In this document: piece after piece, positions 1,947 to 15,399 of the stretch
Numbering within the stretch: the first letter of the stretch is position 1
How the letters are laid out: each line of letters opens with the position of its first letter
Assembly: GCF_009741735.1 (NCBI RefSeq)
Contig: NZ_WHOH01000003.1
Coordinates: forward strand, 1 to 64,000
Reading direction: 5' to 3'
From: Lentibacillus sp. JNUCC-1
GTDB lineage: Bacteria > Bacillota > Bacilli > Bacillales > Amphibacillaceae
DNA: 64,000 nucleotides
Position numbers and translations under genes: made by a program
The notes under the pieces: model-generated
Told to the model about the DNA's origin: nothing
What the model saw: the letters and a program-made list of their open reading frames with translations, nothing else
The model's database searches: none

Positions 1947-2052
1947 TGTCTTTTAGTGGTTTATTTTCGGAGGTTCTTTTATCTCATTTGCGATTCCTAA
2001 ATCCTATCACTATCTAACCCCCTTCTTTACAGAGGTTTTAAGTGACATTAAA

Positions 2053-2080
2053 TTAAACTAACTATATACTTATATATAAT
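2053..2080 (+). promoter_or_regulatory. Candidate promoter of the HipA-like/HIRAN operon
   Basis: TATAAT at 2075-2080 is preceded by a weak TTAAAC at 2053-2058 (16-bp spacing) in a very AT-rich stretch. The rest of 1947-2111 between array and gene shows no other gene; part of it may act as CRISPR flank or leader. Confidence 0.45.
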
Positions 2081-2111: not shown

Positions 2112-2966
2112 ATGATTGATATTTCGCTCTGGGAACGAGACACTAAAAGTCAGGCCTCAGGTACGCGGACAAAATACTGGTTATTGGAACCAGGAACGGA
2201 TTCAGAGCATGCTGCAAAGTATCTCTTTAAAATACCTGTTGAAGGAACTGGTGGCCATTGGGCGGAATATATTGCGAGTAAAGTGGGCTCAGAACTAGGT
2301 TTTAATACGGTTGAAGTAGAATTAGCTATAAATAACGGAGTTGTGGGTACTATTTCAAAGAATTTTCGTGCCACAACTGAAGAATTTTATGAGGGTGGCG
2401 ACTTATTTTTAGCACGATTTGAAGACTTTAATCGTCACTCATTAAGGTATTATGAATTGCCTCATATTATTGATATCCTTTCTGCATATAGTTTAGAAAA
2501 GAACTTTATAGCATTTCCTTTCTTTGATGCCTTGATTGCGAATAATGACCGACATTGTGATAATTGGGGTGTTCTAAGTGGTCCTAGAGGAATACAATTA
2601 TCGCCTATTTACGATAATGGGTCTTCCCTTGGTTTTAATGAAGTCAATCTCAAAAAGAGGAATATGCTGACTGATATGCGTATGCTGGAAGGCTTTTGTA
2701 ACAGAGGGAAGTCTAGTATTGGTTTGCCAGGTAGAAAAAAGCCGAGGCATCTAGAATTATTGTCTTTTTTGTATACACACTTTCCTCATGAGGTCAGTAT
2801 AATAATGACGAAATTTGATAAATTAACCAGTGAACTGTTATTAGACATCGTTGAGGATATTCCAAGTGAAATAATGAGTGATTTAAGTAAAGATTGGGTG
2901 GTCCATCTTTTAATATATCGAAAGAAGTGGATTAAAAGCTGGTATGAAAGGAGTGTGAGGTCATGA
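2112..2966 (+). CDS. HipA-type Ser/Thr kinase core (stand-alone, HipT-like)
   Basis: A 284-aa protein with the HipA C-terminal kinase signature: an ATP-lysine segment YLFKIP (Lys40), a catalytic loop ANNDRHCDNWG (Asp146, Asn151) and a metal-binding SPIYDNG (Asp168). Full-length HipA is about 440 aa; the N-terminal subdomain is missing here and is encoded by the next gene, which overlaps by 4 nt (ATGA). That split resembles HipBST systems, but the order is kinase first and no HTH HipB-like gene is seen. The start follows an AGGGG ribosome site about 10 nt upstream. Role inferred: toxin-like or signalling protein kinase in a defence island; substrate unknown. Confidence 0.85.
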   Translation: MIDISLWERDTKSQASGTRTKYWLLEPGTDSEHAAKYLFKIPVEGTGGHWAEYIASKVGSELGFNTVEVELAINNGVVGTISKNFRATTEEFYEGGDLFLARFEDFNRHSLRYYELPHIIDILSAYSLEKNFIAFPFFDALIANNDRHCDNWGVLSGPRGIQLSPIYDNGSSLGFNEVNLKKRNMLTDMRMLEGFCNRGKSSIGLPGRKKPRHLELLSFLYTHFPHEVSIIMTKFDKLTSELLLDIVEDIPSEIMSDLSKDWVVHLLIYRKKWIKSWYERSVRS

Positions 2967-3718
2967 AAAAGAGGCCGTTTGAACTATGGTTGATCTGGCA
3001 AAACGTCGAGACGCGACAACGATACCACATTGGAAGGTTGCTTCATCAAGATGATGTTTACACTTTCTCTTATGAAAATAGCGGCTACAGAAGGAAGCTA
3101 CAAGAAGCAATGGATAATGGCTATCATCCCCATTTAGCCTTTCCTGATACGGACAAATTGTATACTTCTAGTAAACTTTTTGGTCCTTTCGCTCGGCGTT
3201 TACCTGATCCTAGGAGACCTGATTATCAACAAGTTCTAAAAGAGCTAGGTCTCTCACTTGATAGTACTGATATGGATGTCCTGAGAGCTACAGGTGGGAT
3301 GTTGGCAACCGATTCTTATGAGTTTGTTTCGCCTGTATTTGTAGAGGGCGACCATTTTGATTTAGACTTTTATGTAGCTGGCTGGCGTTATTACGATGGA
3401 GAAAATGTAATCGATCAGCTGCAAAAAGGAGATCATGTCAGATTCACCTTGGACCCTGACAACCCGGAGGATCATAAAGCAGTTGTGGTGATGACTGTAA
3501 ACGGAAAAAAACTGGGCTACATTCCTGCGTTTTACAGTGGATGGATGTTTGAAATTATTAGAAGTGAGTGTAACTATAGAGCCAGAATTGAAAGCATTCA
3601 TCCCGAAGCTGTACCACACCGAAAAGTTAACATTTCAATCGTAGGTGAGTTAAATCATCCGATTAACTTTGATAGCGTATTAAACGATAAAGAGCAATTG
3701 CGATTGGTGATGTGCTAA
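2963..3718 (+). CDS. HipA N-subdomain (HipS-like) fused to a HIRAN domain
   Basis: A 251-aa protein in two parts. Residues about 8-125 follow the HipA N-terminal subdomain: IGRLL, YTFSYE, LAFPD, FARRLPDPRRPDY and DVLRATGG align with VGEL, HTFKY, LSLPL, FDNLLPD and DLLSEIG of E. coli HipA. Residues about 136-215 look like a HIRAN domain (VAGWRYYDG, KGDHVRFTLDPDNPEDHKAV, LGYIP), a module of DNA-repair proteins such as Rad5/HLTF that binds DNA ends or stalled forks. It overlaps the kinase stop by 4 nt, so the two are translationally coupled. Inferred role: partner, antitoxin or DNA-damage sensor of the kinase. I know of no characterised example of this pairing. Confidence 0.75.
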   Translation: MKKRPFELWLIWQNVETRQRYHIGRLLHQDDVYTFSYENSGYRRKLQEAMDNGYHPHLAFPDTDKLYTSSKLFGPFARRLPDPRRPDYQQVLKELGLSLDSTDMDVLRATGGMLATDSYEFVSPVFVEGDHFDLDFYVAGWRYYDGENVIDQLQKGDHVRFTLDPDNPEDHKAVVVMTVNGKKLGYIPAFYSGWMFEIIRSECNYRARIESIHPEAVPHRKVNISIVGELNHPINFDSVLNDKEQLRLVMC

Positions 3719-3758
3719 GCAAACTAATTAGTGCTTTATAGAGGTGGAGTTGATAATA

Positions 3759-3926
3759 ATGGGGGTCTTTTGGGAGAATAAAATCGCTGAAAGGATAAAA
3801 TATGCTGACGAGAATCCTGAAGAACGTTATTCAATAGACCAAGTGATGTCAGCAGAAGAATATGAAAGTTTTCGGCGGATTGAACCAGACTCTATAGCCG
3901 ACGAAGATTTTTTTGAAGATGAGTAA
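3759..3926 (+). CDS. Small acidic protein, 56 aa, unrecognised
   Basis: The ATG at 3759 is preceded by GAGGTGG at 3741-3747; upstream GTG/TTG codons in frame overlap or crowd that site, so the ATG is preferred. The product is strongly acidic (ending DEDFFEDE) with a central segment YSIDQVMSAEEY, and has no HTH or membrane segment. It is the third gene of the kinase/HIRAN unit, 40 bp after the HIRAN gene and just before a terminator. Small acidic proteins in such positions can be antitoxins or DNA mimics, but that is speculation here. Confidence 0.65.
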   Translation: MGVFWENKIAERIKYADENPEERYSIDQVMSAEEYESFRRIEPDSIADEDFFEDE

Positions 3927-3957
3927 AGGACTGCATATATGCGGTCTTTTTCATTTT
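3927..3957 (+). terminator. Rho-independent terminator of the kinase/HIRAN operon
   Basis: An 8-bp stem GACTGCAT/ATGCGGTC (3929-3946, one G-T pair) is followed by TTTTT and a T-rich tail. It separates the kinase/HIRAN unit from the BREX operon. Confidence 0.85.
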
Positions 3958-4030: not shown

Positions 4031-4642
4031 ATGACAAATCAACTGCAATATCGGTCGACCATTAAATCCCGACCATTTCTTTACATAGAAACAAAAAAGC
4101 TTGCAGAGCTGATGCTGCAGGGGTTGAATGACTTGGAGATAAAGGAGCAGGTCATCCACCAAAATATTTTCCAGGTGAAGTCTGAAACCAGGAAACGTGA
4201 TATTGCCGCAGCGGTTCGAACCAGATTGCAATCACTTGATGACTATTTGCTTGAGCGGATTGTTAAAGCACATACCAATACGAGCAAATACATCGTTTTA
4301 TATGCTATTGCTAAAACGGACCGTCTGTTCTATGAATTCTTGCTGGAAGTGATTGGTGACAAGTTTGTATATAAAGACCTCATCCTTCAGCCGGGAGATT
4401 TTAATATTTTCTTTGAGGCTAAACGCCAGCAGAGTGAACATATGGCCTATTGGAAGCCCTATACATTCTACAAGCTGCAGCAAGTATATACCCGCATACT
4501 ATATGAGGCTGGGCTGATAAAAAAAGACCACAATCAACTTGAACTCGTTGTGCCGTTTGTAGAGCCAGATGTAATTGAGCATTTACGGAAAATAGGATCA
4601 GAGCGTTTTCTTGAAGCGACAATGCAGGGGGGAACATCGTGA
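4031..4642 (+). CDS. brxA: BREX protein BrxA (DUF1819)
   Basis: A 203-aa protein of the usual BrxA size. The body has the family's features: an early RPFLYIETKKLAELM segment, a run around VKSETRKRDIAAAVRTRL and a C-terminal half rich in aromatic residues near MAYWKPYTFYKL. BrxA is a DNA-binding component of BREX phage defence. It is the first gene of the operon, with AAGGG 10 nt before the ATG. It ends in a GTGA overlap with brxB. Confidence 0.92.
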   Translation: MTNQLQYRSTIKSRPFLYIETKKLAELMLQGLNDLEIKEQVIHQNIFQVKSETRKRDIAAAVRTRLQSLDDYLLERIVKAHTNTSKYIVLYAIAKTDRLFYEFLLEVIGDKFVYKDLILQPGDFNIFFEAKRQQSEHMAYWKPYTFYKLQQVYTRILYEAGLIKKDHNQLELVVPFVEPDVIEHLRKIGSERFLEATMQGGTS

Positions 4643-5223
4643 AGACCATTCATGAAAGATTGGACGCCATCTTACCGAAAATTAAAGATCCATCATTCAG
4701 GCAAAATCGGGGATTGGGTAATGAAATCGGTTATCATATTTTTGATTACGAGCCGCAGTATGAAATGCTCGTCAGGGATCATATTGCCTATTTAAAAGAT
4801 CAAATTAACAATGATCCTTCATCTTCCCAGCGTATCACTGAATTTGACCTCTATGAAATGGTACTCGAGATTCTTGATGAAAAAGGGTACTTGGAAAAGA
4901 ATTTCGTCATGGAGGAGAAAAAAGGCAGTCAATATGTGCTCAATGCCACAAGAAAGGCGTTGCGTCTGACGCTGAACAATGATCAGATCATACGCTATAT
5001 GGCAGAACGGATTGAACCTCATGATATTGTATTCATTACAGGCATCGGGAAAGTGTTTCCAATTATCCGTTCACATGTCGTTTTGAATAACCTGCATCAT
5101 GCAGTTGGGCAAGTTCCAGTGGTGTTGTTTTTCCCAGGTCGTTATGATGGGCAGGAACTTGTCTTGTTCAATGAGATTAAAGATGACAACTATTACAGGG
5201 CTTTTCAGCTCGTAAGTGATTAA
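4639..5223 (+). CDS. brxB: BREX protein BrxB (DUF1788)
   Basis: A 194-aa protein starting at a GTG that overlaps the brxA stop by 4 nt. The sequence carries DUF1788 hallmarks such as FDYEPQYEMLVRDHI near the N terminus and ITGIGKVFPIIRSH followed by VPVVLFFPGRYDG near the C terminus. BrxB is a small BREX core protein thought to act in the complex with BrxC and PglX/PglZ. The gene is followed 19 nt later by brxC with a perfect AAAGGAGG site. Confidence 0.92.
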   Translation: MKTIHERLDAILPKIKDPSFRQNRGLGNEIGYHIFDYEPQYEMLVRDHIAYLKDQINNDPSSSQRITEFDLYEMVLEILDEKGYLEKNFVMEEKKGSQYVLNATRKALRLTLNNDQIIRYMAERIEPHDIVFITGIGKVFPIIRSHVVLNNLHHAVGQVPVVLFFPGRYDGQELVLFNEIKDDNYYRAFQLVSD

Positions 5224-5242
5224 CTTTTAAAGGAGGATCACC

Positions 5243-8200
5243 ATGCAGATTAAAGACATGTTTAAGCGGCGCATTAACAGAGATATTAAAGGCGTCATAA
5301 AGATTGGACAGGATGACGATGCGAACATGTATCAGGAGCTTGAGGAATATGTGGTGACAAATGAGCTGCATAAACATATCGGCTCCTTTTTTGAAGCGTA
5401 TGCAAAAGGCATTGAGACGCCGACGGATAAGATTGGGGTATGGATTTCCGGCTTTTTCGGATCTGGTAAATCACATTTCCTTAAAATCCTTTCTTACCTA
5501 GTGGAAAATCGCGCTGTTCAAGGCAAGCAGGCCATTGATTTTTTCGAGGATAAAATCCATGATCCAAAGACGGTTGACCATCTTAAAAAAGCAGGCAGCA
5601 TTACGACCGATGTCGTCCTGTTTGACATTGATGCTAAAAGTGAATCAGATTCAATGGCTGATAAGGAATCCATTGTTAAAGTGCTGAACAAAGTCTTTAA
5701 TGAAATGCAGGGGTTTTGCGGTGCGATTCCGTGGATTGCCGAAATTGAGCGGAACATGCAGAAAGACGGTACATACGAAACCTTCAAGAAAACATTTCAC
5801 GATATTGCCGGCACGTCTTGGGTAGAAGCACGTGAGGATTTTTATTATGAAGAAGATGCGATTATCGAAGCGCTGAGCAAGACAACACAGATGAGTGAAG
5901 CGTCTGCCCGGAATTGGTTTGAGCGAGCAGAAGAAGAATATACGATTAGTATCGAGCGTTTCGCAGGCCGCGTGAAGGAATACATAGACGACAAAGGTCC
6001 AGACCATCATGTAGCATTTTTCATTGATGAAGTGGGTCAGTATATCGGTGACAATTCCCGCGCCATGCTCAACCTGCAGACCATTGTGCATGAACTTGGG
6101 CGGCAGTGTAAGGGTAAAGCCTGGATCATTGTGACATCTCAAGAAGACATCGATTCCGTCCTGACTGTTAAAGGCAATGACTTTTCCAAGATTCAAGGGC
6201 GTTTTGACACGAAACTGAGCCTCTCCAGTGCGTTTGTCGATGAAGTGATTAAGAAGCGTATTTTAGAAAAAAACGAGCCTGGCGCCCAGACGCTTGATGA
6301 AGTGTATCGGAAGAAAAATTCGATCCTTCAAAGTGTGCTTTCATTTACCCAAGACAGTGCAGAGATGAAGACATATGCAAATGCGGATGATTTTATCGAT
6401 GTCTATCCGTTCATCCCGTATCAGTTTAACTTACTGCAGAATGTTTTTACCGGGGTGCGGATTCATGGCGCGGCAGGAAAGCACCTAGCAGAAGGTGAAC
6501 GTTCCCTGTTAAGTGCTTTTCAAGAATCAGCGATCCAGTATGGAAATGAGCAAGAAGGGACGCTTGCGCCTTTCTCAGCATTTTATGAAACGATTGAGGC
6601 GTTTCTTGATTCCAGCATTCGAACGGTGATCATCCATGCCTCACAAAATGAAAAGCTTGAGGAATTTGATATTAATGTCCTTAAACTATTGTTCCTGATT
6701 AAGTACGTGAAAGAACTGCCAGCCAACATGGAGAACATTGCAACGCTCATGATCGACCACATTGATGTTGATAAAATTGAACTCAAAAAGCGAATTGAAA
6801 CAGCGCTCATCCGTTTAACAAAACAAACCTTGATTCAGCGTAATGGTGATGCTTACATTTTCCTCACCAATGACGAACAGGATGTAAACCGCGAGATTAA
6901 ACATATGCACGTGGAAACCTCTGAAGTCGTCCAGAAAATAGGCAACGAGGTTTTTGAAGGGATCTATACAGATAGAAAATACCGTTATTCCAATAAGTAT
7001 CACTTTGCGTTCAACGCCTACATTGATGACCGGCCAGTAAGGACACAGGCAAGCGACTTGGGGGTCAGAGTGCTGACGCCGTACGCAGATGAAGCACTTG
7101 ATTTTAATGCTTCCGAACTCAAGATGGTCTCACTTCGGGAAAACAACGTCATTTTGAAGCTGCCTCAGGATACGTCCTATCTTGAGGAGATGGATGAAAT
7201 TCTGCGTATCCAGGCTTATTTAAAATTAAAAAGCGGTACAGCAGTCTCCCAGGCAGTGGAAGATATTAAAACGCGGAAGTCCCGTGAAGTAACAGAGCGG
7301 CAGGAACGCATCCGCACATTTCTGACTGAGGGCTTAAAATATGCCGAGATCTATGTTAATGGCCAGCAGATGGATATTGGACCTAAGAACCCGGTGGACA
7401 GGATAAATGATGCATTAAGAATGCTTGTCAGAGCGGAATATAACAAGCTCGATTATGTCACTGAATTTGTCGATACAGTAAAAGATTTGCAGAACTTTGT
7501 AACAGAACCGGAGCAGATGGCTCTAGAAGGTGTCAAGCAACCAAATGCCAATGCATTAAAGGAAGTGATGGTTTATATTGATCGCCTTGCAAACCGCAAT
7601 CAAAGCATGACTGTGAAAGATCTTCGTGATTACTTTTCTGCAAAACCTTATGGTTGGCTTGAACTGGATATCACAGCACTTCTGGTTCAGTTGTTCAAAT
7701 CACAAGATATCCACTTCCGGCTGAATACGAAAGAGTTGCAGCTGGACGATCCGAATCTCGTCAACTACCTGACCAAGCGGGACAATATCGATCGCGTCAT
7801 TGTGAAAAAGCGGGAACGTGTTTCCCCAATTCTCTTAAAAACAGTCCGTGATGTGAGCAAGGATCTGTTTGGCATCTCAGCCCTGCCAACAGACGAAGAC
7901 GGTTTGAGAAATCGTTTCACGGAATTGTTGCAAAGTGAACGGGAAGTACTGATCGACCTTTTGGCAAACTACCGCCAGCATGGTGTGTATTATCCTGGGG
8001 AAAATGTGCTCAGAAAAGGCAAAAAGTTGATTGATGATTTGCTGGAAATCGGGGACACGGCGACATTCTACAAAGCCGTCCGGGAAATGCGCCGCGATTT
8101 GCGAGCCTATGCCGAGGATTCCAAAGAAGTGAAAAGCTTCTTTAAGAATCAGCAAGAAAAATTTGATGAAGCGGTTAAACGGTTGCAGATTTTTGATAAA

Positions 8201-8800
8201 AACCGAACTTATGTGACAGATAAAACGATTACCCAAACGGCCCACCAAATGGAGAGAATCGTTAACAATACCCAGCCATATGACATGATCCAGGAACTTC
8301 CTGGACTGTATCAAGCGTTTGACAATCACTTTGTTGATTTGCTTGAAGAGGAATGCAAACCCGTGAAAGCATCCATCCAAGAGGATATGGCTGAAGTTGA
8401 AACAGAACTGGCCAAAGATGACGTTCTGAAAGACAAACTCTTGCTTGATTTCAGGGAAGCCTTTCGCACTTTGGAGGACCGTCTTGACCGTGTCAATGAC
8501 TTGTATGAGGCGATTGCCATGCAGGTAGAAAGCGACCGGTTGAAGGTTAGATGCATGGAAACGATCAACAGGGAGCGGGACAAACAGCACATCCCTGAGC
8601 CAGACCCAGATACGGATCAGCAAGCACCAGAAAAGCCGAAACCGAAACCTGTTCGCAAAACGAAGACCTTAAGCAAAAACATGATGATCAAAGGCACACG
8701 CACATTACAATCAAAACATGATGTCGACAATTTTGTAGAAGAACTTCGGAAGCAACTACTGGATGAGCTTGATGAAGAGACGACCATTCATTTGGTGTGA
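5243..8800 (+). CDS. brxC: BREX ATPase BrxC
   Basis: A 1185-aa protein, the usual BrxC length. A Walker A motif GFFGSGKS lies at residues 70-77 and a Walker B-like FFIDE at about 259-263 (Asp262, Glu263). The C-terminal third is charged and probably coiled, ending in a Pro/Lys linker (about residues 1120-1140) before a short tail. BrxC is the AAA+-like ATPase of BREX, needed for host methylation and phage exclusion. AAAGGAGG precedes the ATG. No frame damage is seen. Confidence 0.95.
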   Translation: MQIKDMFKRRINRDIKGVIKIGQDDDANMYQELEEYVVTNELHKHIGSFFEAYAKGIETPTDKIGVWISGFFGSGKSHFLKILSYLVENRAVQGKQAIDFFEDKIHDPKTVDHLKKAGSITTDVVLFDIDAKSESDSMADKESIVKVLNKVFNEMQGFCGAIPWIAEIERNMQKDGTYETFKKTFHDIAGTSWVEAREDFYYEEDAIIEALSKTTQMSEASARNWFERAEEEYTISIERFAGRVKEYIDDKGPDHHVAFFIDEVGQYIGDNSRAMLNLQTIVHELGRQCKGKAWIIVTSQEDIDSVLTVKGNDFSKIQGRFDTKLSLSSAFVDEVIKKRILEKNEPGAQTLDEVYRKKNSILQSVLSFTQDSAEMKTYANADDFIDVYPFIPYQFNLLQNVFTGVRIHGAAGKHLAEGERSLLSAFQESAIQYGNEQEGTLAPFSAFYETIEAFLDSSIRTVIIHASQNEKLEEFDINVLKLLFLIKYVKELPANMENIATLMIDHIDVDKIELKKRIETALIRLTKQTLIQRNGDAYIFLTNDEQDVNREIKHMHVETSEVVQKIGNEVFEGIYTDRKYRYSNKYHFAFNAYIDDRPVRTQASDLGVRVLTPYADEALDFNASELKMVSLRENNVILKLPQDTSYLEEMDEILRIQAYLKLKSGTAVSQAVEDIKTRKSREVTERQERIRTFLTEGLKYAEIYVNGQQMDIGPKNPVDRINDALRMLVRAEYNKLDYVTEFVDTVKDLQNFVTEPEQMALEGVKQPNANALKEVMVYIDRLANRNQSMTVKDLRDYFSAKPYGWLELDITALLVQLFKSQDIHFRLNTKELQLDDPNLVNYLTKRDNIDRVIVKKRERVSPILLKTVRDVSKDLFGISALPTDEDGLRNRFTELLQSEREVLIDLLANYRQHGVYYPGENVLRKGKKLIDDLLEIGDTATFYKAVREMRRDLRAYAEDSKEVKSFFKNQQEKFDEAVKRLQIFDKNRTYVTDKTITQTAHQMERIVNNTQPYDMIQELPGLYQAFDNHFVDLLEEECKPVKASIQEDMAEVETELAKDDVLKDKLLLDFREAFRTLEDRLDRVNDLYEAIAMQVESDRLKVRCMETINRERDKQHIPEPDPDTDQQAPEKPKPKPVRKTKTLSKNMMIKGTRTLQSKHDVDNFVEELRKQLLDELDEETTIHLV

Positions 8801-8805
8801 ATCGG

Positions 8806-8837
8806 AACAGACGGGTCTTTGTGATGACCTGTCTGTT
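8806..8837 (+). other. Intercistronic hairpin between brxC and pglX
   Basis: AACAGACGGGTC and GACCTGTCTGTT form a 12-bp stem with one G-T pair and an 8-nt loop. No T-run follows; a ribosome site for pglX comes 9 nt later. It may stabilise or partly attenuate the operon mRNA. Confidence 0.65.
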
Positions 8838-8860
8838 GCCATAAAAAGGAGGAATGCAGT

Positions 8861-11800
8861 ATGAACAAAGGTGCGATAAAGCGTTTTGCCACCACGGCCC
8901 GACGAAAACTGATTGCGGACGTGGGTCAGAAAGCGTTTGAACTCGGCATCTCGCCTGATCATGTGAAGGAAGCGGAGATCTATGAAGACGGGTTTATGAT
9001 CAACGGCCAGTTCTATAGTCAGCCTGAAATACGCCGGCGGGACAGACTAATTAATGAGATTGAGCAAAAAGGGTATGGCCAGGTGATTGATGAAGTGGCC
9101 TATACGTGGTTTAACCGGTTTATTGCCTTACGGTACATGGAAGTGAATGATTATCTGCCGAGCGGGATTAGAATCCTCTCTTCAATCGAACCTGATAAAA
9201 AGCTGCCAGATGCTTTGAGTGAGGTCATGCTGTTAATCGATGACCTCGGCCTTGATGAAGAAACAGTTTTTGGCCTTCAGGACGTGAATGATGATGAAGG
9301 CTTGTTCAAATACATATTGGTTAAACAATGCAACCAGCTCGGTGAATGGATGCCGGTCATGTTTGAAGAAATTGCTGATTACACAGAACTTCTTCTCCCA
9401 GGTAATTTGCTTGCCGACACGTCTGTGATCCGGGATATGGTGTCATTGATTGAAGAAGATGACTGGACAAAGGAAGTCGAAATCATCGGGTGGCTGTATC
9501 AGTACTATATTTCCGAGAAGAAGGATGACGTCTTTGCAGCCCTCCGGAAAAATAAAAAAATCACGAAGGAGAACATTCCGGCCGCAACAGAATTGTTTAC
9601 GCCAAGGTGGATCGTTCAGTATATGGTCGATAATTCCCTGGGCCGCCTATGGTTGGAATCCCATAAAGACGAAGCGTTCAAGCAGACACTGCCCTATTAC
9701 CTTGAAAGCGCAGACCAGCCAGAAAATGTTAAAGTTCGTCTGCAGGACATGAAGGATTCAAACCTTGATCCGACATCGATCACCTTCCTCGACCCATGCA
9801 TGGGATCGGGTCATATCCTTGTCTACGCCTTTGAAGTTCTGTTCGACATTTACAAATCAGTAGGCTACCGTGAGCAGGATATCCCACATTTGATCCTAGA
9901 GCACAATCTCTATGGCCTTGACATCGATCCACGTGCCGGTCAGCTCGCCTATTTTGCCGTGCTGATGAAAGCCATGCAATATAATTACCGTTTGTTCGAA
10001 CGTCCAATCAAGACAAACCTGTATTGGATTGAAGAAAGCAACACCCTGACCGAAGATGATATAGACGTTTTTGCAGGAGAATCAGGTCTGAAAAACGATG
10101 CTGCATTACTCGTACAGACCTTCAAGGATGCAAAGTTATATGGTTCTGCTGTCATCATGCCTGATTTGGATCTTTCTGGTTTAAGAGAGCGACTCGATGA
10201 ATTGAAGCAAGGGCAGGGAGATGACATGTTTTCCATTGCCTTTCAGGAAGAAAAGATTGAGTTGGTTGAACAACTGATTAATCAGGCAGAGGTTATTACG
10301 CGTCAGTATCAAGCCGTTGTAACCAACCCGCCGTATATGGGCCGTAAAGGTATGAACGCCGAACTGACGACGTATTTAAGGAAGCATTATAAGGATTCGA
10401 GTGCTGATTTATACGCCGTCTTTATGGAAGTAGCCAGCCGAGCTGTAAAAGATAATGGGTTTATAGGCTTAATCAACCAGCACTCATGGATGTTCTTATC
10501 ATCATTTGAGAAACTGCGCGAAAAAATGCTCAAATCTCACCAGATCTATTCCATGGCACACCTTGGCACACGCGCCTTTGCAGAAATCGGCGGAGAAGTC
10601 GTACAAACGACAGCCTTTGTCTTGCGGAAAAAGGTCATACCAAAATTTGTTGCGACGTTTGTAAGGTTGGTAGATGTGAATAATGCTGAGGGAAAGATGG
10701 AACGGTTCTTTGATAAGAGTCTAAGGTATGAACGGACACAGAATGGATTTTCGGATATACCTGGATCACCTGTGGCTTATTGGGCGAGTGAGCGGGTTAG
10801 AAATATATTTAAAAATGAAAAATTACTGCAAGATATAGCAGAACCAAAAGCAGGATTATCTACTGGTAACAATTTATTGTTTCAAAGGGTATGGACAGAA
10901 GTAGATATTTTAAAAATTGGATTTAGATATAAATCAGACAGTGATACAACAGATTTAAAATTTAAATGGTTTCCTTGTGAAAGTGGGGGAGATTACAGGA
11001 AATGGTATGGAAATAGCAATGTAATTTTAAACTGGTTTGACAATGGAACAGATATTAAGAACTTTAGAGATAAGCAAGGAAAACAAAGGTCGGCAGTTCG
11101 TAATTCAATGTACTATTTTCAAGCAGGGCTTACCTGGAATAAATTGAGTTCTAGTAAATTTTCAATAAAACTTAAAAGAGATGATTCGATATTTGATGAC
11201 ACGAGCAGGTCTGCTTTTCCTATCAATAGATCTCAAACTAAATATTTACTGGCAATGTTGATATCAAAACTATCTACATACTTTATTTCTTACTTGAATC
11301 CAACTCTTAGCTTTACTAATAACGATATTAAGAGAATTCCAGTTGTACTATGTAAGGGCGATCTGTTAAAGCGTGTTAATTCAATAACTGATAATAGCAT
11401 TTCGATTTCCAAATCCGATTGGGACTCTTTCGAAACCTCATGGGATTTCAAAAAACATCCGTTCCTTGAATTCCAAAACGGAGCAGCAAAGCTATACGAG
11501 GCGTTTGATAATTGGGCGTATGAGGCAGATGGACGATTCTGTCAGTTGAAAGAGAATGAAGAGGAATTGAATCGTATTTTCATTGAATTATACGGTCTGG
11601 AGGATGAGTTGACACCGGATGTGCCGGATGAAGAAGTGACGGTGAACAAAGCTGATCAGGAAAGAGACGTCAAATCATTCTTGTCCTATGCTGTTGGAGT
11701 TATGTTTGGTCGTTATTCACTGGATGAAGAGGGTCTTGCATTTGCTGGAGGCACATTTGACCCGGATCAATATCACACATTTCAACCCGATCAGGAGAAT

Positions 11801-12418
11801 GTCATTCCGATAACAGATGATGTGTATTTTGAAGACGATATTGTCACACGGCTGATCACGATTCTCAAATTGACGTTTGGGGAAGAAGATCTTGAGGCAA
11901 ACCTGGACTTTATCGCAGACACGCTGAAAAAGCGTGGGAGCGAAACATCAAGGCAACGAATTCGTCGTTATTTCTTGAAAGAATTTTACAAAGACCATGT
12001 CAGAACCTATCAAAAACGGCCCATCTACTGGCAGTTTGAGAGTGGAAAACAGGACGGGTTTAAGGCGCTCGTGTACTTACATCGGTATGATCCGGGCTTG
12101 GTGGCACGTGTCCGTACACAATATCTTCATGCCCAGCAGCGGAAGTACGAGGATGAGATCCGCCGGCGTGACGATGTGCTCGAATCCGATGCATCACGTC
12201 CGGACAAGACTCGTGCCGCCAAAGAGAAAGAGAAACTGCAAAAACAACTGCAAGAATGCCGACAGTACGATGAAATCATCGCACACGTCGCAAACCAGGC
12301 CATTGATCTCGATCTTGACGACGGCGTCAAAGGTAACTACGCCAAATTTCAAAATATCCAAGTCCCACAAGGAGAAGGCAAAAAACCTCTCCAAGCCAAC
12401 CTGTTAACGAAAATTTAA
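8861..12418 (+). CDS. pglX: BREX adenine-N6 DNA methyltransferase PglX
   Basis: A 1185-aa protein. The SAM-binding motif DPCMGSGH begins at Asp311 and the catalytic NPPY motif lies at residues 489-492, giving an N6-adenine methyltransferase that marks host DNA at the BREX site. Residues about 640-860 (10790-11440) are visibly more AT-rich than the flanks and hold the expected target-recognition region, with high divergence in codon use. This suggests that this segment was exchanged by recombination. AAAAGGAGG precedes the ATG. The C terminus is intact. Confidence 0.95.
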   Translation: MNKGAIKRFATTARRKLIADVGQKAFELGISPDHVKEAEIYEDGFMINGQFYSQPEIRRRDRLINEIEQKGYGQVIDEVAYTWFNRFIALRYMEVNDYLPSGIRILSSIEPDKKLPDALSEVMLLIDDLGLDEETVFGLQDVNDDEGLFKYILVKQCNQLGEWMPVMFEEIADYTELLLPGNLLADTSVIRDMVSLIEEDDWTKEVEIIGWLYQYYISEKKDDVFAALRKNKKITKENIPAATELFTPRWIVQYMVDNSLGRLWLESHKDEAFKQTLPYYLESADQPENVKVRLQDMKDSNLDPTSITFLDPCMGSGHILVYAFEVLFDIYKSVGYREQDIPHLILEHNLYGLDIDPRAGQLAYFAVLMKAMQYNYRLFERPIKTNLYWIEESNTLTEDDIDVFAGESGLKNDAALLVQTFKDAKLYGSAVIMPDLDLSGLRERLDELKQGQGDDMFSIAFQEEKIELVEQLINQAEVITRQYQAVVTNPPYMGRKGMNAELTTYLRKHYKDSSADLYAVFMEVASRAVKDNGFIGLINQHSWMFLSSFEKLREKMLKSHQIYSMAHLGTRAFAEIGGEVVQTTAFVLRKKVIPKFVATFVRLVDVNNAEGKMERFFDKSLRYERTQNGFSDIPGSPVAYWASERVRNIFKNEKLLQDIAEPKAGLSTGNNLLFQRVWTEVDILKIGFRYKSDSDTTDLKFKWFPCESGGDYRKWYGNSNVILNWFDNGTDIKNFRDKQGKQRSAVRNSMYYFQAGLTWNKLSSSKFSIKLKRDDSIFDDTSRSAFPINRSQTKYLLAMLISKLSTYFISYLNPTLSFTNNDIKRIPVVLCKGDLLKRVNSITDNSISISKSDWDSFETSWDFKKHPFLEFQNGAAKLYEAFDNWAYEADGRFCQLKENEEELNRIFIELYGLEDELTPDVPDEEVTVNKADQERDVKSFLSYAVGVMFGRYSLDEEGLAFAGGTFDPDQYHTFQPDQENVIPITDDVYFEDDIVTRLITILKLTFGEEDLEANLDFIADTLKKRGSETSRQRIRRYFLKEFYKDHVRTYQKRPIYWQFESGKQDGFKALVYLHRYDPGLVARVRTQYLHAQQRKYEDEIRRRDDVLESDASRPDKTRAAKEKEKLQKQLQECRQYDEIIAHVANQAIDLDLDDGVKGNYAKFQNIQVPQGEGKKPLQANLLTKI

Positions 12419-12639
12419 TCGTTTAAAATTGTATTTAAATATTATGGCAGGATATTTTTGTGTTTGTTATAGAAGAAAGATGCTTGCTTACCAGCAGTGG
12501 AAATATACGGAGACACCAGTGGGAGGAAAAGATTTGTCCCAAATGATCCTAAGACCATTATCTAGGAACATCACGCAGCGTCCAACCATTTGGCATAAGA
12601 TGCAGGTTAACTTATTTATGAAATAGGCGCACATACTAA

Positions 12640-12767
12640 GTTACCTGGAACGGAAGGCGGCGACTCCAGCGGGAACAGCACGAGTCCGAAGACCCCGCAG
12701 AGGTGGTCTTCCTCGAGGAGGCTGAGGCCGTGCCCGCGGAAAGCGACCGCCTGCAGTGAAAGGTAAC
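12640..12767. repeat. Bacillaceae palindromic intergenic repeat in the BREX operon
   Basis: This 128-bp element begins GTTACCT and ends AGGTAAC, with GC-rich inner parts such as GAGTCCGAAGACCCCGCAG and GAGGAGGCTGAGGC. It is related, in opposite orientation, to copies at 35629-35809 and 53793-53918, and in the same orientation to the copy split by an IS at 54102-55801. It accounts for most of the unusually long gap 12419-12855 between pglX and pglZ. The remainder of that gap shows no convincing gene; a 65-codon reading frame at 12429-12626 has no ribosome site. Confidence 0.85.
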
Positions 12768-12855
12768 GGCGTTATGACCGGTTGTTTGCTTAAAGAACCT
12801 TTAGAATAAATAGGCTTAAAATAAAGCCTAAGCATAATATACAAGGAGGGCAGTC

Positions 12856-15399
12856 ATGAATTTATCCGAAACACAGCGCGTATTGGCAGATTTTTTCCAA
12901 AAAGAACTGACTCATAACAAGAAACGCCATCTCGTCTTCTGGTATGACGAGAGCGGCGAATTCGCTGAAGACATCGAACAGATCGACATCCCAGGCGTCC
13001 GCAAGTGGATCATTCGAAAAGACAATTTGTTCGCAACGAAATACGAACTTGAAAAGCGCGATCCTGACTCTCATTTCTTGCTATACGCCAATATGCCAAA
13101 ACCGATACCGCGAGAGGACTGGCTGTATGATCAATTTTGCATGGGACAGGAATTCGCGACAGACAAGATCACGGTCATTATGCGCGAGTTGGGCCTTACT
13201 GACGACGCCCTTAGAGAAACGTTTAAAACGTTTCAGTCATTTTTTAACAACAAGGAACGGCTCAGGGCCTTCCGCAAATATGATGTGCATGATTGGACGG
13301 AAGAGGCCATTGAACTAACGGTTCTTGCTGCTCTGACTAAGAGCAAGACAAATACCATCGATGATATTATCAAAGCCCTCATGCATGAACATTCAGAGGA
13401 TAGGACTCAGCTGTGGGAAGTTATGGATAAATATGCCGGGTCAGATGTGTTTTGGCAGTTGGTTGAAAAATACTATGGCTATATGTATCCTGACAAGTCA
13501 CTTGAAAGTCTTGCTTTGTCTTTTATCATGACATACATGGCAGAAGCAGCCGAGATGATTGAAGTGCCTCAAACATGGAAACCATTCATTAGCGGCCGGA
13601 CCGCCAATGTGGTTGTGTTCATGGATCAGTGGATGAATCACCGTGAAGATCGTCATGTGTACGACAAAGTGGCCGGACAATTGGAACGGCACATTGATAT
13701 GGAAGCATTGCTCGCACAATGGGACGTGCGTGAACGTTTGGCATTTGATGCTTTCCGTATATTCGATAGAACGACGATTGATTATGTGGTTCATCAGCTG
13801 ATATCGGGCATGACGTATTTCAAAGCATATGCTGACATGCTTGAAAAGCGCCGGCACAGTCATTGGTATTCTGAGTTCGAACAGGAATATGGGGCGTTAT
13901 CGGGGGCTATAGAGCTGTTACAGCTCGTTCATGAGGAACTTGCATACATCCCTGAAATGACAGGTTTTGATCTTTTTACCACGTATGAGAAAAATTATTA
14001 TCGGCTTGATACGGCTTACCGAAAATTTTACGTGCATTACGACAGGGTAAAAGATAAGGATGATTTACTTGGTCTGCGCGATTATGTTGAAAAGGTCTAC
14101 ACCAACCAATTTATGAATGAGCTTGCTATTAAGTGGGCCCATGCGCTTGAAGCAACGGAGAAGGAAGGATGGCCGATTCCTGGCATTTCCCAGCAAGGTG
14201 ATTTTTACAGGGATTGGGTGATGCCGTATCAGCATAACAATGAGCGTGTGTTTGTCATTATTTCCGATGCACTTCGCTTTGAGGTGGCGAAAGAGGTCAT
14301 GAATGCGTTAAACCATGAAAGAAAGGCGTCTACGGAGCTCAAAGCAATGCAGGGTGTCCTGCCGTCATTCACAGCGCTTGGAATGGCCGCACTTTTGCCA
14401 CATAACACGCTGGCGCTGACTGAAGACGGCAAAGTACTTGCAGACGGTAATAGCACGGTAGGTCTGAAGAACCGTGAAATGCTTTTGCAAACAAGGACGC
14501 CTGAAGCTATGGCCATATCATTTGATGAGGTTGTCGAAATGAATCGTGGCATGATGCGTGAGGCGTTCCAGGGGAAAAAGATGATCTATATTTATCATAA
14601 TGTGATCGATGCTACTGGAGACAATGCCTCGACAGAGCAAGATGTTTTTCAGGCAGCGGAAACGGCGGTTGATGACATTACACAGCTCGTTAACCAGCTG
14701 GTGGTGAATCTAAGTGTCTCCAACGTCCTAATTACGGCTGACCATGGTTTTATTTACCAGAGGGACAACATCGCCGAAAGCCAGAAGACACCGCGTTATA
14801 AGGGGGAGTCGTTACTGTTAAAGCGCCGGTTTATGTTGACGGACGGGCCTATTAATGTGGAAGAGACGCTGTCATATGAGATGAACCAAACAAATGGGGG
14901 CAAACCCTTATTCATTACGGTTCCCAAAGGCATAAACCGCTTCCCGATTCAGGGGGCAGGAGCGAATTTTGTTCATGGGGGTGCCATGCTGCAAGAAATT
15001 GTCGTTCCGGTGATTAAATTTAAAAACGATCGCAGCCGTTCTGATGAGAATGCGGTGAAACAGGTCATTGTCCGTTTGACGACACCTACCCGGAAAATTA
15101 CGCATGAAGTGACCTACCTGACTTTCCTGCAAACCGAACGTGTTGATGATAAACGTCGGCCATTAAGATTAAATGCTTATTTTGTTGATGAAGCTGGTAT
15201 GCGTGTTTCCAATGAAAATGTGATCATCGCCGACCGGACAGCAAATCACCCAGCTGAGCGCACATTCCGTGAGAAGTTCGTGTTTAAACGGATGAACTAT
15301 GACAAACGTAAAACCTATACACTTGTACTGGAAGATGAAGAAGACAAAGCAGGTGCTGCTTACGAACGCTATTCGTTTACGATTGATATAATTGGGTAG
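12856..15399 (+). CDS. pglZ: BREX phosphatase-fold protein PglZ
   Basis: An 847-aa protein with the PglZ alkaline-phosphatase-like fold in its second half: the metal-binding segment VIISDALRFEVAKEV (Asp471) and TADHGFIYQRD (Asp629, His630). PglZ associates with PglX and is essential for BREX. CAAGGAGGG precedes the ATG. In known type 1 operons brxL follows; here the next gene is an aldo/keto reductase 45 bp downstream, so the locus stops at pglZ. Confidence 0.95.
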   Translation: MNLSETQRVLADFFQKELTHNKKRHLVFWYDESGEFAEDIEQIDIPGVRKWIIRKDNLFATKYELEKRDPDSHFLLYANMPKPIPREDWLYDQFCMGQEFATDKITVIMRELGLTDDALRETFKTFQSFFNNKERLRAFRKYDVHDWTEEAIELTVLAALTKSKTNTIDDIIKALMHEHSEDRTQLWEVMDKYAGSDVFWQLVEKYYGYMYPDKSLESLALSFIMTYMAEAAEMIEVPQTWKPFISGRTANVVVFMDQWMNHREDRHVYDKVAGQLERHIDMEALLAQWDVRERLAFDAFRIFDRTTIDYVVHQLISGMTYFKAYADMLEKRRHSHWYSEFEQEYGALSGAIELLQLVHEELAYIPEMTGFDLFTTYEKNYYRLDTAYRKFYVHYDRVKDKDDLLGLRDYVEKVYTNQFMNELAIKWAHALEATEKEGWPIPGISQQGDFYRDWVMPYQHNNERVFVIISDALRFEVAKEVMNALNHERKASTELKAMQGVLPSFTALGMAALLPHNTLALTEDGKVLADGNSTVGLKNREMLLQTRTPEAMAISFDEVVEMNRGMMREAFQGKKMIYIYHNVIDATGDNASTEQDVFQAAETAVDDITQLVNQLVVNLSVSNVLITADHGFIYQRDNIAESQKTPRYKGESLLLKRRFMLTDGPINVEETLSYEMNQTNGGKPLFITVPKGINRFPIQGAGANFVHGGAMLQEIVVPVIKFKNDRSRSDENAVKQVIVRLTTPTRKITHEVTYLTFLQTERVDDKRRPLRLNAYFVDEAGMRVSNENVIIADRTANHPAERTFREKFVFKRMNYDKRKTYTLVLEDEEDKAGAAYERYSFTIDIIG

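Follow-up and report, generated by a model that had tools for sequence, protein, structure and literature searches.

A hipIN locus in Lentibacillus sp. JNUCC-1 and the one-sided loss of its kinase gene in related genomes

The locus and its neighbours

The window, i.e. the whole 64,000-nt stretch of Lentibacillus sp. JNUCC-1 DNA that was analysed (contig NZ_WHOH01000003.1), carried near its start two genes on the forward strand, hipI (2112..2966), encoding a 284-aa HipA-type core kinase without N-subdomain 1, and hipN (2963..3718), encoding a 251-aa protein with a HipS-like N-terminal half and a C-terminal HIRAN domain, a probable antitoxin. The two ORFs shared 4 nt (ATGA). Together with a small acidic ORF of 55 aa (3759..3926, forward strand) they were bracketed by a promoter-like site (GTGACA-17-TATACT, 2042..2070, forward strand, matching 10 of 12 consensus positions) and, 3′ of the acidic ORF, an intrinsic terminator (3925..3950, forward strand) with an 11-pair stem followed by a T run (fold z −4.21). 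Promoter-like sites in the region were not above chance (6, vs a mean of 8.7 in shuffled sequences).

Upstream, a CRISPR array of 29 repeat copies occupied positions 1-1930 of the window. The contig begins at base 1 and 2.1 kb exists 5′ of hipI; in this available 2.1 kb no gene for a helix-turn-helix (HTH) protein was seen on inspection of the ORFs alone, because the ORFs in 1-1930 read through CRISPR repeats. Segments 53-352 and 842-1141 of the array were 99% identical, reflecting either a duplicated spacer block or an assembly fault near the contig start. Elsewhere in the same genome (991803-991929 of contig C1), a decayed second hipIN copy retained 72% DNA identity over the end of hipI and the start of hipN; it covered HipN residues 2-43, with frames broken.

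The earlier note on this DNA, made from its letters alone, had counted the acidic gene as a member of the unit and given it 56 aa; from the ATG at 3759 its length was 55 aa (the search query started one codon before the ATG and so had 56), and it was not found at the other hipIN loci searched. Eleven related hipIN loci gave no match at E 0.01, and among loci L015-L042, searched at E 1, only the window's own copy matched. It was found in 1 of the 159 genomes of a family sample, its own, and had matches in 4 of the 397 genomes of an order sample, its own included. At three loci (L044, L049 and L050, from two order-sample genomes and a Planococcus plasmid) the ORF matched the last ~50 residues of ~120-aa antitoxin-like proteins, each encoded immediately 5′ of another small gene. 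By Pfam, two of the three upstream proteins resembled PhdYeFM (E 1.8e-6 and 5.3e-5, both below the cut-off) and the third had no match; of the downstream proteins one matched ParE (above the cut-off), one Gp49 (below it) and one nothing. The downstream proteins were 39-48% mutually identical and therefore were all probably ParE/RelE-like toxins. The Planococcus plasmid match was weak alone (E 0.01), acquiring meaning only with the two more of that kind, and a third further order-sample match (L051), located in a different kind of ORF (581 aa), was left out. A profile score of E 2.6e-12 for the acidic ORF was inflated, the three profile sequences having been picked as its own matches; neither their colinear placement at the C-terminus nor the relatedness of the genes behind them had been a ground for selection.

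Judged by these alignments, the acidic ORF resembles the tail by which a Phd/YefM-like antitoxin binds its toxin, with the DNA-binding part missing. No toxin gene of the type partnered with Phd/YefM lay beside it, and a search for such a toxin in the genome itself found nothing, an uninformative result. It lies between hipN and the terminator and is probably in one transcription unit with hipIN. This position would favour a system of three genes with the acidic protein as its third component, e.g. a DNA mimic or a second antitoxin; its absence from the other hipIN loci searched and from the other 158 family genomes, and its resemblance to the tail of unrelated Phd/YefM-like antitoxins, make such a system highly improbable. 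Apparently, the conserved hipIN unit does not include this ORF.

Downstream, BREX genes brxA, brxB, brxC, pglX and pglZ followed on the same strand (4031..15399), the first four recognized by Pfam and PADLOC, and a PglZ domain was found in 12856-15399 (Pfam, E 2.4e-58). A gap of ~437 bases separated pglX from pglZ. In place of brxL, an aldo/keto reductase gene (Pfam) followed the operon, and no match to the BrxL ATPase was found in the whole genome (96.6% completeness). Since brxA begins on the common strand 0.3 kb after hipN and 0.1 kb after the acidic ORF, hipIN might be thought an accessory module of this BREX system, but the terminator lies between the two. Among the 159 family genomes, BrxC occurred in 14 and the HipN model matched in 21 (some of these being fragments or HIRAN-only), and the two coincided in 2 genomes vs 1.85 expected if independent. 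In one of these two the HipN was fragmentary and far from BREX, so that adjacency was confined to the window's genome (1/21). A tblastn search with the window's proteins detected no BREX genes at the 11 related hipIN loci, within flanks of at most 10 kb, several of them ending at contig edges. An accessory role in BREX has next to no probability on this evidence, and BREX looks like a neighbour of hipIN, not a partner. Against described hipIN loci, the acidic ORF and the BREX neighbour are local extras of the window.

Identity of the gene pair and its two proteins

The pair of a kinase gene and a HipS-like/HIRAN gene was, with near certainty, a hipIN module. This unit had been put forward in the earlier note as undescribed; its layout is not new and was already described by Gerdes, Baerentsen and Brodersen in 2021 as hipIN, in which the gene for a short kinase precedes hipN, encoding a HipS-like plus HIRAN putative antitoxin (PMC8262856); in their scheme such kinases fall in the HipI subclades of main clade XI. 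Gene order, a short kinase without N-subdomain 1 and a downstream HipN with a HIRAN domain and, less clearly, a HipS-like half were shared, and no difference was found in the features compared. Both proteins also matched, nearly full length, the component models of PADLOC PDC-M03, a phage defence candidate that is a predicted system only (HipI vs PDC-M03A, E 4.8e-110; HipN vs PDC-M03B, E 1e-118). Neither the name PDC-M03 nor experimental work on hipIN was found in the literature searched, most subscription papers and bioRxiv preprints lying outside its reach. A 2025 paper reports that roughly one in three of the diDNase genes analysed adjoins HipA and HIRAN genes (PMC11706625).

Three related systems were compared. 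HipBST of E. coli O127 and Legionella likewise has its kinase core separate from a HipS partner, which is its antitoxin (PMC10627512), but it has an HTH gene, hipB, in the operon and a kinase gene placed after its partners (PMC8262856, PMC10627512), and it has no HIRAN. In the window the kinase came first and no HTH gene was seen, so that the unit was not of the hipBST type, in agreement with the earlier note. HipL has kinase, HipS-like part and HIRAN in identical order but all in one protein, whereas hipJS has a related kinase with a HipS-like antitoxin downstream and no HIRAN (PMC8262856). At four loci (L185, L191, L202 and L203), small proteins directly 3′ of kinases weakly matched HipN-profile residues 71-120 (E 0.002-0.007); these are possible hipJS modules, a HipS match being as expected for antitoxins of the hipJS type.

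HipI matched Pfam HipA_C with 37.7 bits (E 2.2e-9), above the 30.5-bit cut-off; the view of a HipA split in two was upheld. An alignment of 31 full-length pairs was made, comprising 28 from genomes (the window's included), two from phages and one from a plasmid. The catalytic residues named beforehand (Lys40, Asp146, Asn151 and Asp168) were present and identical in 31/31 kinases, as was Lys21. Ser16, directly before Gly17 of the Gly-rich loop region, was Ser in 22/31 and, on the analogy of HipT, may be an autophosphorylation site (PMC10627512). Related solved structures found with the family profile included CtkA (E 1.4e-32), Legionella HipT (2.9e-9) and HipA (6.9e-7). The alignments for structure prediction were shallow and the models of HipI (mean pLDDT 65, pTM 0.70) and HipN (mean pLDDT 63, pTM 0.50) only moderate; therefore no conclusion on fold was drawn from them.

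In HipN, the HipS-like region (residues 21-112; 3023..3298, forward strand) matched Pfam Couple_hipA with 17.7 bits (E 0.0052), below the 22.5-bit cut-off. At E ≤ 0.01 this family was matched by 14 of 32 HipN proteins and missed by 18. The HipN profile aligned colinearly with N-terminal residues 4-68 of HipA from E. coli K-12, at an hhalign P of 0.0019 and a probability of only 14%, and among solved structures the 32-sequence profile matched neither HipA nor HipS chains. The HipS-like assignment is thus weak for the single sequence, with some support from the family. The HIRAN domain (residues 133-230; 3359..3652, forward strand) was clear (Pfam, E 7.5e-20) and was matched in 32/32 aligned HipN proteins, a set gathered with a model that includes HIRAN. 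By family profile, structures matched by the HIRAN half included those of lp_0118, an uncharacterised protein (E 1.9e-10), and of the HLTF HIRAN (E 3e-7). Of the fusion proposed earlier, the HIRAN part was accordingly matched to structure by sequence profile, and the HipS-like part remains weak.

Asp170 and Gly185 of HipN were identical in 31/31 and Arg142 was Arg in 27/31. When HLTF Tyr72 and Tyr93 (taken from PMC4666394) were put on the HipN alignment by their 21-residue spacing, Tyr143 fell at Tyr72 (Tyr in 20, His in 10 and Phe in 1 of 31) and Glu169 occupied the position of Tyr93, a HIRAN stacking residue (Tyr in 7/31). The stacking pair was only half kept, and therefore DNA binding by HipN may differ from that of HLTF or be weak; HIRAN is retained, with a DNA contact that does not look like a copy of HLTF's.

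Loss of the kinase gene across genomes

Gerdes et al. retained full-length kinases only, by their own criterion (PMC8262856). Here, the order sample (397 genomes) and the family sample (159), which overlap, were both searched with HipN and kinase models. Stop-to-stop pieces were scored against profiles built from intact sequences, and a gene was called intact if one frame covered 95% of the profile. At 56 distinct places, both genes were intact in 27 (the window's included), which confirmed that the pair recurs in other genomes; the kinase was broken or absent beside an intact HipN in 19, both were broken in 10 and the reverse was seen in none. The 19 losses, which include two (G030 and G152) with only one end of the kinase missing (89% covered) and some single-stop kinases that could be sequencing errors, fell in 14 genera, and their lesions differed (frame splits, stops, a missing 5′ part, only a 3′ end, kinase not found). 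A two-sided sign test gave 3.8e-6, or 1.2e-4 when each of the 14 genera was counted once. Three of the places with both intact (one in G377, two in G399) shared one HipN sequence and entered the count separately. Where no kinase match was obtained (two places), no kinase-matching frame lay upstream of HipN: one had a 378-codon frame not matching the kinase profile, and the other nothing longer than 112 codons within 1.6 kb.

Both models were run on the same genomes, and therefore any intact HipI lacking a HipN should have come to light, HipI being defined by a strong profile match that kinases drifted after HipN loss could escape. Weak matches stood outside the 56-place count, namely 25 + 3 rows for the HipN model (26 distinct places) and 19 for the kinase. 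By the family profile none of the 19 weak kinase places had a full-length HipI, all being fragments or matching other HipA-like kinases in part. Among 15 weak HipN places looked at, 14 were HIRAN-only or fragments and one no longer matched, none having an adjoining HipI; the remaining 11 of the 26 include the decayed copy in the window's own genome (L002). The 11 related loci had been found by HipN alone and also stood outside the count unless the place was sampled as well; among them L007 and L011 had a broken kinase with an intact HipN, and L014 had both broken. In G043, a short frame (L200:2536-2949) matched both the beginning of the kinase and the end of HIRAN and is probably the scar of a hipIN deletion.

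Pairwise dN/dS was 0.09-0.23 in eight pairs that included one or two orphan HipN genes vs 0.08-0.18 in four intact pairs, values that cannot date the kinase loss. The ranges are similar, and therefore orphan HipN is not visibly relaxed in selection; HipN may have a job beyond restraining its kinase. That the kinase is expendable alone while HipN was never lost beside a working kinase fits the toxin/antitoxin prediction. This one-sided loss hints, in quantitative terms, at HipN being the antitoxin of HipI, and it strengthens the assignment proposed by Gerdes et al., which we regard as probable.

The decay also bears on a reading of HipI as a non-toxic kinase signalling DNA damage or replication forks, with HipN as its regulatory subunit. 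In its favour is the HLTF HIRAN, which works in fork remodelling (PMC4666394). The patchy distribution (21/159 family genomes), the frequent decay with one-sided kinase loss, and carriage by phages speak against it, and we consider it very unlikely.

Phage carriage and the predicted mode of action

The kinase alignment, used to scan viral contigs, picked out 34 loci, among which identical scores marked likely duplicates (L152/L153; L158/L159/L176; L170/L171). HipN lay beside the kinase in 28 and in one ORF with it in three, hence at 31 of the 34, which from an independent set gives further support to the toxin-antitoxin reading. The other three comprised a two-frame kinase with an intact HipN, a locus cut by the contig edge, and one without HipN (L184), whose kinase was distant. 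In annotated phages, HipN relatives were found in 6 of 50,697 records, four of them from Vibrio, and the pair adjoined an integrase gene in two of the three phage records inspected (one Clostridioides and one Vibrio phage). HipN-relative matches occurred in 8 of 72,556 plasmid records. In the L009 prophage the pair was flanked by a phage helicase/primase gene on one side and by HNH plus terminase genes on the other (replication/packaging), and an HNH gene was likewise downstream of the pair in L006.

Taking the sequence comparisons together (the identities of both genes, the kinase residues, the tight gene coupling and the one-sided kinase loss), we infer a mode of action that includes inhibition by the HipS-like half, toxicity, a kinase target, gating by HIRAN and a role in defence. 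HipI would be a serine/threonine kinase harmful to its own cell, most likely through phosphorylation of a translation component. The HipS-like half of HipN would replace the missing N-subdomain of the kinase, bind HipI and keep it inactive; it should hold HipI because HipS blocks the active site of HipT in HipBST (PMC10627512). The HIRAN half would probably recognise DNA ends or single-stranded DNA (phage ends, replication intermediates or damage), and HipN loosened or repositioned by DNA-bound HIRAN would let the kinase act, so that growth stops or the infection aborts. A prophage-borne hipIN would in addition stabilise or protect its prophage.

Release of the kinase by DNA binding of HIRAN is a natural guess and is owed to Gerdes et al., who proposed that HIRAN recognises phage DNA ends or replication intermediates and the kinase is then activated, with abortive infection as the role of hipIN (PMC8262856). 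The guess of a kinase gated by DNA damage or phage forks, made earlier from the window alone, coincides with their proposal. Overall, the best explanation is probably a toxic kinase HipI held by HipN; HIRAN may sense DNA, and the module probably serves in phage defence or in the maintenance of prophages. HIRAN as the sensor that triggers release is a more tentative part of this explanation. If HIRAN does gate the kinase, DNA structure itself would be the direct trigger of a toxin-antitoxin system.

The main rival is a simple addiction module that persists through stabilising prophages and islands, in which HIRAN is a DNA anchor, allowing HipN to bind DNA for autoregulation or localisation only, with no sensing of phage or damage. 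Carriage by phages and a prophage beside integrase or packaging genes would suit it, as would the one-sided kinase loss and the half-kept stacking pair. On the other hand, HIRAN domains studied so far are described as binders of DNA ends, which suits sensing better than operator binding (PMC8262856), and HIRAN was kept throughout the aligned HipN proteins, though these were collected with a HIRAN-containing model. We give the addiction module a minor share of the probability. A further reading couples two proposals, that HIRAN binds phage ends or single-stranded DNA and so frees the kinase, and that hosts keep orphan HipN against the kinase of an incoming hipIN phage; because hipIN rides on phages, orphan HipN would then be kept as anti-addiction or immunity factors. 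This combination we hold to be unlikely. Returning to HipN as the antitoxin of HipI, the phage-borne hipIN copies and the orphan HipN genes make that question directly approachable.

Fusions were also encountered among viral sequences. On three viral contigs (L173, L181 and L182) the kinase and HipN regions lay in a single ORF as HipL-like fusions. In Escherichia phage 899 (L047:5110-6669), the third phage record inspected, a HipN match fell within one 1560-nt CDS, which suggests a putative kinase-HipN fusion.
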